Shown here one piece after another: positions 5,668-61,816 of a DNA stretch of 64,000 bases. The stretch is from NCBI RefSeq assembly GCF_000020005.1, contig NC_010718.1, forward strand, positions 3,058,001-3,122,000, in the 5' to 3' direction. The translations under genes were made by a program, and so were the position numbers. The notes under the pieces were generated by a model that saw nothing but the letters and a program-made list of their open reading frames with translations, was not told the origin of the DNA and searched no databases. The stretch is from Natranaerobius thermophilus JW/NM-WN-LF (lineage in GTDB: Bacteria > Bacillota > Natranaerobiia > Natranaerobiales > Natranaerobiaceae). Each line of letters begins with the position of its first letter. Position 1 is the stretch's first letter.

Positions 5668-5729
5668 TTACCCGTAGTTACAGAGAATATTTAAACTAAA
5701 TTAACTAAATAAAATTATAAATTTATAAA

Positions 5730-5904
5730 CTCGTTAGGTGAGGCTCCTGGGTGGATATAAGCTGCTGCCCAAAAACGTCGAGAGACGCCAATGGGTATAA
5801 CAGACAGTGTCGGCTTAAGGCCTGTCTAATGCAGCTGGTCCTCTTCTACCTTATTAGATATTAAATTTCGGATCTACGTCACCCAGTGCCAAAGCTAAGA
5901 CGAG
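5730..5904 (+). ncRNA. M-box (ykoK-type) Mg2+ riboswitch
   Basis: The leader has the hallmarks of the M-box: CGTTAGGTGAGGCTCCT at the start, GCTGCTGCCCAAAAACG followed by AGAGACGCCAATGGGT, and the TTAAGGC/TGTCTAATGCAGCTGG segment. The closing stem pairs CTCGT (5730-5734) with ACGAG (5900-5904). It is followed by an intrinsic terminator and then mgtE, the classic target. High Mg2+ is expected to favour the aptamer fold and termination, shutting off Mg2+ uptake. Assignment rests on recognised conserved blocks; I did not fold it computationally. Confidence 0.93.
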
Positions 5905-5989
5905 GAGTGCGTAAGCTGTTTATTGTTTTAATAAACTAGTTTAGTTAACCTATGTTTATTATTACTATATAGGTAGTAGTTTAGCGGCT

Positions 5990-12310: not shown

Positions 12311-12324
12311 AAATCGAGTAGGTA

Positions 12325-12394
12325 GAAGCCACAGTAATTAGCTGTGGCTTCGTTCCTCTCACAGAACCGTGCTTACGGGCCACGTACACGGCTC
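12325..12394 (-). ncRNA. Group II intron domains V and VI
   Basis: Domain V covers 12364-12394 and reads GAGCCGTGTACG ... AAGCACGGTTC on the minus strand, the conserved catalytic hairpin. Domain VI (12325-12351) is a perfect 10-bp stem, GAAGCCACAG with CTGTGGCTTC, closing a seven-base loop. No bulged adenosine is visible in the stem, the feature that normally provides the branch point for lariat formation. Confidence 0.85.
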
Positions 12395-12408
12395 CTAGTA
12401 GACCTCGA

Positions 12409-13677
12409 TCACTTTCTAAAGTGATGCAAAATACCAACTTGATAGGTACTAATATTAATTAGACCTATCTCGTCAAACCACTTATTGGGTAGTGCTAAAC
12501 TTATGAGAGGACTTGATGAGTTTCTCCATTTATTCATGGAGATTTTCTCAAATTCCCCTTTGTAGCCTTTTCTGCGAAGAGTTTTGTGTAGTTGTTTCCA
12601 ACTTTTCCATTCTCGCATTTTCTTCATCCTAAGTCTTCTTCTAATCCATTTCATTAAGTTCTCAAATTGTTTCTTACAATTGGCTATTCGGAAGTAATTT
12701 GCCCATCCTCTTAATACTGGATTTAGCTCTTTTATGATTTCGGATAGATTTCTACCATGATTTCTTGGTGTAAGAGTTCTGACTTTTTCTTTGAATTTCT
12801 GTATCTTTTCAGGCTGGATGGATATGTTTTGACTCCTTATGATAACTCCTAGGTAGGGAACACCTTTGCGGTCATTTGTTATGTGAGTTTTCTCTTTATT
12901 AACTGTTAGTTTTAATTCGTCTTCTAATATTTCAGTAGCTATATCTTTATATCTTTTCGCTTGTCTTGGTGTGTAGGCGAATATTAAAATATCATCGGCA
13001 TATCTTACTATTCGGATATTGCGACTCTTCATTTCTTTATCAAATCTGTCTAGGTAAATGTTGGTTAGTAGTGGTGATATCACTCCACCTTGAGGGCTCC
13101 CTATTTCTGTGTCTTCTAGGGCTCCATCTTCCATTACTCCGGACTTCAAAAACTTCTTTATTAATTTGAGAACACTTCCATCACTAACTTTCTTGGCTAC
13201 TTCTTCGATAATCAACTCATGGTTTAATTTATCAAAGCATTTAGATAGGTCCATATCTACTACATGTCTTAGATTGTATTTATTAATGAACTGTTCTGAT
13301 TTAGCTATTGCTTTGTGACATGAGCGATTAGGCCTGTATCCGTAGCTTGACGGGTGGAAGTCTGGATCAAAAATCGGTTGAAGTATATTTAACGTTGCTT
13401 GTTGGACTACCCTGTCTTTTACGGTTGGAATCCCTAATGGGCGAGTACTTCCATCTGGTTTGGGTATCTTAACTCGCCTCACAGGTTGTGGTTTGTATGC
13501 GCCAATTTTAAGGTCATGATGAAGGGTTTCCAGATTTTCTTCTAGGTTGGAGCCATAAGCCTCCACGGTTACCTGGTCTATGCCGGGTTTACCTTTGTTA
13601 GCTCTGACCCTGCGGTAGGCGTCTTCTAGATTCTTTTTGGAATAAATCTTGTCTATTAAACTGTACCATTTCTTCAT
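12409..13677 (-). CDS. ltrA: Group II intron reverse transcriptase/maturase
   Basis: About 422 residues. Reverse transcriptase blocks are complete: PDGSTRPLGIPTVKDRVVQQ (RT2), VVDMDLSKCFDKLNH (RT3), EIGSPQGGVISPLLTNIYLD (RT4) and the catalytic YADD near residue 229 (RT5). A maturase X/thumb domain follows (LNPVLRGWANYFR). There is no D/En endonuclease module, as expected for class C. ATG 13677 is preferred, with AAGGTG six bases before it; GTG 13686 overlaps that site. It promotes folding and splicing of its own intron and reverse transcription into new sites. The frame is intact. Confidence 0.93.
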   Translation of the reverse strand: MKKWYSLIDKIYSKKNLEDAYRRVRANKGKPGIDQVTVEAYGSNLEENLETLHHDLKIGAYKPQPVRRVKIPKPDGSTRPLGIPTVKDRVVQQATLNILQPIFDPDFHPSSYGYRPNRSCHKAIAKSEQFINKYNLRHVVDMDLSKCFDKLNHELIIEEVAKKVSDGSVLKLIKKFLKSGVMEDGALEDTEIGSPQGGVISPLLTNIYLDRFDKEMKSRNIRIVRYADDILIFAYTPRQAKRYKDIATEILEDELKLTVNKEKTHITNDRKGVPYLGVIIRSQNISIQPEKIQKFKEKVRTLTPRNHGRNLSEIIKELNPVLRGWANYFRIANCKKQFENLMKWIRRRLRMKKMREWKSWKQLHKTLRRKGYKGEFEKISMNKWRNSSSPLISLALPNKWFDEIGLINISTYQVGILHHFRK

Positions 13678-14414
13678 CAATTGCACCTTCTTTCGCTGTG
13701 TGCCTTCCCTCTTTCTACACTTTTAGTTGTGGTTTCTTTGAACGTGCTTAACGGTGTCTCTAGCTCTTTGGCAATCTTACCTATCAGGGTACGCTCTACT
13801 TCCACTAGGCGGACGGTAAAGCAAGTAAGCTCGTCACCACCTGACTTTCCGTTCCCTTTAGCATTTCAGCTTCAGTTTTCTTCCTACCTAAAGTGTCTAC
13901 TCGAGTTCTTGCTACACTCTTTGGTCTACTTTCACCCCTTCACACTACATAATTCCCTTTCGGTCATTATGTACCACTACAACCAGGTGTAGTGTCCTTT
14001 CGGTTTTATCCTCCAGACTGTTACCAGCTTTCTTTGGCCGAAAGTTCTTCAATACTACGGGTTCATCTGCCTCCTGCACTGCTTTAGTTAAAACTCATGT
14101 TTCCACTTGTCTTAACTTTACTTGTCGTCACAAGACAATACAGGTATCTCCCCGGTTAAGTCTGCTTGCCTGAATTTGAACGCATCCGTCCTAACCTTTT
14201 AGGTTATCCAGCTTTCGGGCTTTCCCATAATTTGCAAGGTTACCCACCTAAAAGGCCATCCTCGGTTTGTTCTCACTATGTTCCAAATTCCCCCTTCAGC
14301 TTCCTTCAGACTCCACCGTCACCGGTGACGCCCTTGCCTTATGGTTGTCTTCCTGCTGGTTAGGTGACAGGGTTTCTTTCAACCCATCGGCGCGGCAGGC
14401 ATGCCGGGCAAACA

Positions 14415-48111: not shown

Positions 48112-49356
48112 TTACATATGATGAAGATTCTTTAAAAATTCATCATTGTTTGAAGTTCGTTTTAATTTTTCTCCTACAGTTTCTAAGAATTCTTCTGGAC
48201 TAGCATCCATCATAGCTCGCCTGAGAGTCCAAATTAACTCTAAATGTTTTTTATCTTGTAACAGCTCTTCCCTTCTGGTACCAGAACGTGAAATATCAAT
48301 AGCTGGAAATATTCTTCTATTAGCCAGTTTTCTACTCAAGTGAAGCTCCATATTACCAGTACCTTTGAATTCCTCATAAATTACGTCATCCATACGACTT
48401 CCAGTATCAACTAGGGCAGTAGAAAGTATTGTTAAACTGCCTCCCTCTTCTATATTTCTGGCAGCTCCAAAGAATTTCTTTGGTTTGTGTAGAGCTGAAG
48501 GGTCAATACCTCCAGATAAAGTTCTGCCACTGGGGGGAATTACCAAGTTATAAGCTCGAGCCAGACGTGTCATAGAATCCAACAAGACTACAACGTCCTT
48601 TTGGTTTTCCACCATGCGCTCAGCCCGTTTCATAACTAGTTCAGCAAGTTTGACATGATTTTCAGGATAATTATCAAAGGTAGAACTGACCACTTGAGCA
48701 TCAACAGACCTTTCTATATCAGTAACTTCTTCTGGACGCTCGTCAATTAATAAAATTATAATCTCAGTTTCTGGATGGTTTTCAGCTATACAATTGGCTA
48801 GCTGCTTAAGCAACACAGTTTTACCTGCTTTAGGAGGACTAACTATCATCCCTCGCTGTCCGCGCCCTATTGGTGAGAATAAATCAATCATGCGAGGTGC
48901 TAACATATCTTGCCTAATTTCTAATCGAAAAGGGGCATCTGGGTGAATCGGGGTAAGGATAGAAAAATCTTTTCTTGTTTTTGATTCTTCAGGGGGACGT
49001 GAATTCACAGCTTCTACATGCAACAAAGCCATATATTTTTCATTATCCTTGGGTGGACGCACTTTACCAGAAACCAGATCGCCAGTTTTTAATCCAAATC
49101 TCTTGATTTGAGATGCCGAAATATAAATATCATTACTACCAGGAGTATAGCCGTCCGGTCTTAAAAAACCATATCCGTCGGGCATAATTTCTAAAACACC
49201 TTCAGAAAAATTATAACCATCTTTTTCAGTATAGCTTTCAATTAATTTAAAAATTAAATCACTTTTTTTTAATCTAGTATAGTTTTTCACGCCATATTTT
49301 TTGGCAATTTCATGTAGTTCAGATACTGTTTTTTGTTCTAAATCTTTAATATCCAA
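48112..49356 (-). CDS. rho: Transcription termination factor Rho
   Basis: Hexameric RNA helicase that ends untranslated transcripts. The 414 residues contain the N-terminal Rho domain ([29 protein letters not shown]), the cold-shock-like RNA-binding domain ([21 protein letters not shown]), P-loop [11 protein letters not shown], Walker [17 protein letters not shown] and the secondary-site region. The only plausible start is TTG 49356 behind AAGGAGGTAA, a sign of modest translation. Confidence 0.96.
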
Positions 49357-49579
49357 TTTTTATTACCTCCTTAAAAACTACCCCAACCTAATTACGAATA
49401 TTACCTTGTAACATCTTTTAACAAGGTAAAATCAATTAAAACATAAAATTTTAAATTGATGTATAGATTGACATAATAGGGAAACTATTGGGTAAGAAAT
49501 TATTCTTCAGAATGGGGATAAACAACAAACCTCACTTAACGAGTATAAATTATTTATTTAAAATAAACTAAATGTAACA

Positions 49580-49719
49580 GGCGCCTATTTAAAATAGGTT
49601 AAGTGGGGATTGGAAGGTTAAACAACCATTGCTTGTAGCGTGGCAAGCGTGCAAGCTCAAAATGCTAGACAACATTAAGATTTTCCTGGTTGCCATAGTA
49701 AAGCAACCAGGAAGTTTTT
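49580..49719 (+). ncRNA. Candidate structured RNA between rho and glpX, no known family
   Basis: A gene-free 367-bp gap (49357-49723) holds a cluster of short stems on the plus strand: CCTATTT with AAATAGG (49584-49598), GGTT with AACC (49616-49627), GCTTG with CAAGC or GCAAGC (49631-49656), AATG with CATT (about 49660-49675), closed by an 11-bp hairpin and T-tract at 49683-49719. The core is GC-richer than the surrounding gap. No riboswitch consensus I know fits. No convincing promoter: TTGACA at 49468 has no good -10. It could also be read on the minus strand as a rho leader. Confidence 0.35.
49683..49719 (+). terminator. Intrinsic terminator-like hairpin downstream of glpX
   Basis: An 11-bp perfect stem (TTCCTGGTTGC with GCAACCAGGAA, 9-base loop), followed on the plus strand by GTTTTTG. 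The minus side (AAAATCTT) is poorer, so the strand it serves is unclear; it may still end the glpX transcript. Confidence 0.6.
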
Positions 49720-49723
49720 GACA

Positions 49724-50695
49724 CTACTCTTCATAATAGTAAGAGGGTTTTTTATCCAATCTGTGAATGGCATCAATAAATCTAACTGTACCAGTTTTTG
49801 CTCTCATAACCAAACTATGAGAGCGTGCTTTCTTTCCAGCTTCATATCTGATGCCTCTTAATAAGTCTCCATCTGTAATTCCAGTAACTGCAAACATAGC
49901 ATCATCTCCACTGACTAGGTCCTCCATTTGCAGTAATCTAGAGGGGTCATTGATCCCCATATCTTTAAGCCTATCTTCTTGTTCTCCATTTTTAGGCTTC
50001 AAGCGTGCTTGCATTTCGCCTTCTAGACATTTTAATGCAGTAGCTGCAATTACACCTTCAGGAGCACCCCCAACACCGAATAAAACATCTACTCCAGTAT
50101 CAGGTATAGCAGTAGCTATGGCTGCTGAAACGTCACCATCGCTGATTAATTTGATTCTAGCTCCTGCCCTTTTAATTTCATGGATAATATCTTCATGTCT
50201 TGGTCTATCCAATACGATGGCTACTAAATCAGAAACATCCTTTCCCTTAGCCTTGGCAATAGCTGATAAATTTTCCTCTACTGGAGCGTCCAGATCAATA
50301 CACCCTTTAGCTTCCTTACCTACAGCTATTTTTTCCATATAAATATCAGGGGCATACAATAATCCATCTTTTGGTGCTACAGCTACTACAGAAAGGGCAT
50401 TGGGAAGACCCTTGGCCACTAAGTTAGTGCCTTCTACCGGATCAACGGCTATATCAACGGGAATTCCATCTCTACTTCCAACTTCTTCTCCTATATATAG
50501 CATGGGTGCCTCATCTTTTTCACCCTCTCCAATCACCACACGTCCATCTATTTGAACGGTATCAAAAGCCCTTCTCATCGCATCAACTGCGGCTTGATCC
50601 GCACCTTCTTTATCTCCACGACCCATCATTCTTCCTGAAGCAAGAGCAGCAGCCTCGGTTACTCGTACTAGTTCTAAAGCTAATTCTCTCTCCAT
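49724..50695 (-). CDS. glpX: Fructose-1,6-bisphosphatase class II
   Basis: Gluconeogenic phosphatase. The 323 residues contain [41 protein letters not shown] (metal-binding acidic residues), [16 protein letters not shown] and [22 protein letters not shown] 50695 follows AAGGAGGAGG. Together with fsa and fba it forms a sugar-phosphate cluster as in Bacillus. Confidence 0.96.

Positions 50696-60105: not shown

Positions 60106-61816
<1,711 letters not shown>

Follow-up and report, generated by a model that had tools for sequence, protein, structure and literature searches.

Intrinsic terminators typically have hairpin loops shorter than 7–9 nt. One part of PMC4824070 describes repression by ribosomes of terminators located a few base pairs past a stop codon, and it describes some terminators as bidirectional with unequal efficiency. 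For the gene encoding the termination factor itself, part of PMC12350095 describes Rho-dependent attenuation as an established control of Bacillus subtilis rho. The same part reports two candidate Rut sites, one in the 5′ UTR and one in the early coding sequence, with Escherichia coli Rho, and none with B. subtilis Rho. Our literature search for the rho/glpX/rpmE intergenic region together with B. subtilis found no paper.

Here, we focus on the gap between rho and glpX of Natranaerobius thermophilus, in which positions 49580–49719 had been put forward as a structured intergenic RNA. We conclude that the hairpin at 49683–49713 probably belongs to an intrinsic terminator where the fba–fsa/tal–glpX genes meet rho, and that the remainder of the interval is probably upstream region of rho rather than a separate structured RNA family.

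The gap and its hairpin

Coordinates are those of the window, that is, the whole 64,000-nucleotide stretch of DNA that was analyzed. The genome comprises 3,191,453 bases in 3 contigs, and the chromosome 3,165,557 bases. The gap between rho and glpX spans 49357–49723 (367 nt), and both flanking genes lie on the minus strand; fba and fsa/tal precede glpX, and rpmE follows rho. Gene calls in our scripts are longest-ORF approximations. The features of the locus are as follows.

48112–49356, minus strand: rho, transcription termination factor (Pfam Rho_N and Rho_RNA_bind)
49443–49522, minus strand: stretch with C in excess over G (C/G 4.0 in 78 nt), candidate Rho-loading region
49580–49678, both strands: remainder of the proposed interval; stems at chance level, no homologue found
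49683–49713, folds on both strands: terminator-type hairpin, stem of 11–12 bp, loop of 7–9 nt, z -5.63 for 49678–49719
49715–49719, plus strand: T5 tract 3′ of the hairpin, antisense to glpX, from the sequence and its tail score
49724–50695, minus strand: glpX, fructose-1,6-bisphosphatase (Pfam FBPase_glpX)

The original prediction placed its candidate in gene-free sequence, and the interval does lie inside the gap, free of known genes. The elevated G+C content that had been noted relative to the flanks holds on one side: the fraction is 0.43 at 49590–49679 versus 0.17–0.32 in windows within 49380–49589, while glpX, on the other side, also reaches 0.43.

The strong hairpin with a T-tract that had been reported is borne out. 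On the plus strand, the hairpin reads TTCCTGGTTGC-loop-GCAACCAGGAA at 49683–49713, followed by a G and then by TTTTT. Folding of 49678–49719, a stretch picked because it contains the hairpin, gives z -5.63, with none of 500 shuffles as good. The stem has 12 pairs, six of them G-C, as befits an intrinsic terminator. The hairpin begins 10 nt from the glpX stop codon. Immediately after the stem on the plus strand comes the U-tract GTTTTTGAC, as expected of an intrinsic terminator, with a value of 2.24 on a simple tail score. The corresponding tract in the glpX sense (minus strand), AATCTTAATG, scores 0.77, and its longest T run is 2, so it does not qualify as a terminator U-tract. The plus-strand flank preceding the hairpin core is AACATTAAGATT; neither this flank nor the sense tail is what a symmetric terminator working in both directions would have, which counts against the terminator reading. 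The locus thus combines a strong hairpin, positioned at the gene boundary, with a good U-tract on the plus strand only.

Hairpins of this kind are frequent in the window, not rare. Specifically, 18 have a perfect stem of at least 9 bp with at least 4 G-C pairs, and six of these reach at least 12 bp. Also counting against a terminator, our simple terminator scan lists the hairpin at 49683–49713 on neither strand; its loop limit is 8, and the loop is 9 on the plus strand. The scan instead returned a weaker 5-bp site on the minus strand at 49648–49631 (1 found versus 0.3 expected).

The interval had also been described as a series of consecutive short stems, and this part of the description fails. 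Folded whole, 49580–49719 gives z -2.83 and -2.88 in two runs on the plus strand and -3.29 on the minus strand. With the hairpin removed, 49580–49678 gives z -0.59 on the plus strand, where 122 of 500 shuffles fold equally well, and -0.18 on the minus strand, where 213 of 500 do. The loss of the fold signal upon removal of the hairpin indicates one strong structure rather than a series. Hairpin-free stretches of greater length have z values from -0.75 to -2.10, a modest excess at most; the entire gap less the hairpin (49357–49678) gives -2.10 on the plus strand and -1.69 on the minus strand. That the interval owes its fold signal to the hairpin speaks for a terminator. Elsewhere in the gap, an inverted repeat, CCTCACTTAAC / GTTAAGTGGGG, pairs 49530–49540 with 49598–49608, encloses 57 nt, contains one non-Watson-Crick pair, and appears in the predicted folds of both strands.

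Counterparts in relatives and known RNA families

Within the order, we compared the window's genome with one from the same family and another genus (G001) and one from another family (G002). The glpX–rho order is kept in both. Their gaps measure 182 and 200 nt versus 367 nt in the window, and alignment with the two identifies no counterpart for the initial portion of the 367-nt gap. In favor of the terminator reading, a hairpin stands at the end of glpX in all three genomes. In G001, the nearest relative compared (locus L003), a 12-bp hairpin starts 16 nt past the glpX stop and is followed in the sense direction by CTTTTAAAG, with a tail score of 1.90 sense versus 0.33 antisense. In G002, a 9-bp hairpin overlaps the glpX stop and has no U-tract on either side. 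Across 30 glpX loci, 11, the window's included, have a hairpin of at least 8 bp near the glpX stop and the other 19 have none, so the hairpin is not general at the glpX junction, a point against the terminator reading. T runs of at least 4 occur in the sense direction in four of the 11 and antisense in three, two of the latter from one genus and the third being the window. In these sequences, the hairpin position is shared by the order and is found only sometimes beyond it.

For the interval itself, no relatives were found in the genomes searched. DNA homologue searches of 60 relatives and of 397 other genomes of the phylum, a set overlapping the 60, retrieved nothing besides the own genome. 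A covariance model search of 31 genomes likewise matched the own genome and none of the 30 relatives; the model, R1, was built from the window alone at two extents and therefore hardly goes beyond a model of one sequence. Run against 30 sources, namely the window plus 29 glpX loci, R1 matched itself and, more weakly, two other places in the window, one on the complement of the hairpin region (E 0.00015) and one at 61749–61815 (E 0.013). With no homologue found by DNA or covariance search, compensatory changes are not countable. The original prediction had named a lack of structure conservation among close relatives as grounds for abandoning the candidate. The absence of homologues points in that direction, though the nearest relative compared belongs to another genus, and absence from another genus is compatible with a genus-specific RNA.

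No riboswitch family had been recognized at first reading, and the Rfam scan agrees: none of 4227 families reaches its gathering score in the gap. At E values up to 10, the gap yields SNORA14 and nothing else (17.5 bits versus 36, E 0.72), a chance match. The G001 locus, L004, and 13 of 27 further glpX loci likewise contain no family at gathering score. Some bacteria carry two 6S RNA copies. We rejected a divergent 6S RNA at the interval from lack of a match there; the sole RF00013 match of the genome at E≤0.001 lies elsewhere (G000:C2:1365893-1366073). Other parts of the window do hold known RNAs: an M-box magnesium riboswitch at 5723–5914 on the plus strand (144.2 bits) and a group II intron at 12313–14328 on the minus strand (D1–D4 match at 14161–14328, 77.7 bits; Intron_gpII match at 12313–12396, 43.9 bits).

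A mobile or repeated element was also considered and set aside. The own-genome search lists 14 places up to E 10, self included, of which the best other is the hairpin's complement (E 0.03) and the remaining ones have E 0.18 or worse. A phage search of the interval gave no match in a search set from which near records are possibly absent. An exact 22-base scan of genome contigs hit one place, in a Maricaulis MAG, where the similarity beyond the 22 bases is a 10-base chance match. We take the hit to be coincidence because the surrounding frame, read by eye, is an ABC-transporter ATP-binding motif.

A possible plus-strand RNA, rho leader, or short gene

The orientation of the U-tract is awkward for an operon-end terminator: a U-tract opposite glpX counts against one and is what a dedicated plus-strand transcript predicts. 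We surveyed orientation across 364 kb of the chromosome, made up of the window and 15 further stretches of 20 kb each. There are 28 co-directional intergenic hairpins, of which 22 lie no more than 80 nt from the stop codon of the upstream gene. A T run of at least 4 occurs on the sense side in 11 of these 22, on the antisense side in six, and on neither side in nine; thus, hairpins lacking a sense U-tract are common in this genome. An antisense run of at least 5 with a sense run below 4 is found once in the 22, at rho–glpX, and an antisense threshold of 4 adds one more (position 6351 of L045). The orientation is uncommon, yet it is based on a single five-base run.

That single case, together with the good plus-strand U-tract itself, favors a lineage-specific small RNA transcribed from the plus strand, starting near 49484 or 49571, ending at 49719, and acting in trans or antisense to the rho leader. 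Consistent with such an RNA, there are promoter-like sites on the plus strand at 49450–49477 (with an extended -10 TG) and 49536–49564, and the gap, at 367 nt, is longer than those of the two nearest relatives compared (182 and 200 nt), so that it contains extra sequence. The promoter matches are nevertheless at the shuffled level (3 on both strands versus 2.3, sd 1.5, over 49300–49800), and the presumptive body of the RNA folds near chance on the plus strand (z -0.92 for 49571–49678 and -1.72 for 49484–49678). Nor does the RNA have a homologue in the 60 relatives or 397 phylum members, or a covariance match in the 30 relatives. We therefore regard it as unlikely. Support for a genus-specific version is thin, comprising the U-tract, the extra gap length, and promoter matches at chance level. 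Of the suggestion that a small RNA ends at 49719, what stands is that the plus-strand U-tract points to a 3′ end near 49719; a structured RNA as such does not, given the chance-level fold outside the hairpin. A more specific proposal, that a genus-specific plus-strand RNA opposite the rho leader ends at 49719 and tunes rho expression by base-pairing to the 5′ region of rho, strikes us as very improbable. If true, an antisense RNA would control the very termination factor whose normal effect is to suppress such RNAs. In the N. thermophilus transcriptome literature, the closest paper among the matches listed is PMC12388727, which concerns RT-qPCR reference genes.

The original prediction alternatively invoked a rho leader on the other strand, and on the minus strand the interval is indeed the sequence upstream of rho. 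A cis-regulatory leader with an attenuator or protein-binding element made up of the hairpin and the stems after it would draw on this location between glpX and rho, on the minus-strand fold of the whole gap (z -4.17), on the small terminator-like site at 49648–49631, and on the C-over-G stretch. However, the whole-gap value falls to only -1.69 once the terminator hairpin is removed, the hairpin lies more than 300 nt before the rho start and has a poor sense U-tract (0.77), and the G001/G002 alignment contains no counterpart of the initial portion of the gap. An attenuator of this type seems to us quite improbable. The C-over-G stretch also enters our preferred reading, in which the sequence outside the hairpin is upstream region of rho. 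These 78 nt have the greatest excess of C over G in that region on the rho sense strand. They rank joint 5th among 98 leaders in the 364 kb (four of the other 97 are higher and one is tied; another count gave six of 98, this one included). The stretch would plausibly suit autoregulation of the B. subtilis type, with Rho possibly limiting its own production through attenuation at a C-rich, G-poor leader sequence.

We note a separate pattern among the 19 loci with rho downstream. Eleven have a TTGA(C/A)-type promoter match after glpX, and in four of the 11 a CTTC..GAAG hairpin follows close behind the promoter, and the accompanying T run is 5 long in L008, 4 in L005 and L019, and 3 in L029; L012 combines a promoter with another kind of stem. 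In L008, L019, and L029, rho comes next, and in L005 about 600 nt, with an open frame, intervene. These four are among 13 scanned loci with no Rfam match. Their hairpins possibly represent a shared leader or attenuator, and they look more promising in this respect than the rho–glpX interval.

Finally, a short gene, a 30-aa frame at 49629–49721 on the plus strand that overlaps the hairpin, is open, has a hydrophobic middle, and has GGAAGG 11 nt upstream of its TTG, but it passes through the terminator, gives nothing at E≤0.001 in 60 relatives (best non-self E 0.42), and, like the other of two small ORFs tested, matches no Pfam family, all of which leaves it extremely improbable.

A probable operon-end terminator compared with known systems

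Returning to the terminator hairpin at the end of glpX, we consider that it probably descends from an operon-end terminator that still has its glpX-sense U-tract in G001. Given the good U-tract on the plus strand, it would now chiefly shield glpX from antisense transcription by stopping plus-strand transcripts before they reach the gene. In the glpX direction, it could serve as a weak terminator or as a hairpin protecting the 3′ end, in line with the ribosomal repression near stop codons and the unequal two-way efficiency described in PMC4824070. The remaining gap sequence would be a poorly conserved upstream or leader region of rho. The interval thus looks ordinary. Its value lies mainly in calibration: a single terminator hairpin accounts for what looked like a run of plausible stems in raw sequence. 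The slightly unusual orientation of the U-tract would matter if the plus strand proved to be transcribed opposite the leader of rho.

Two known systems frame the locus. A possible likeness to the B. subtilis rho leader is the C-rich, G-poor stretch upstream of rho here, which falls outside the interval originally singled out. The other system is the intrinsic terminator: an 11–12 bp hairpin, one base, and then T5 on the plus strand, at a gene boundary, with the differences that the loop is longer than usual and that the better U-tract here is opposed to the preceding gene, glpX.
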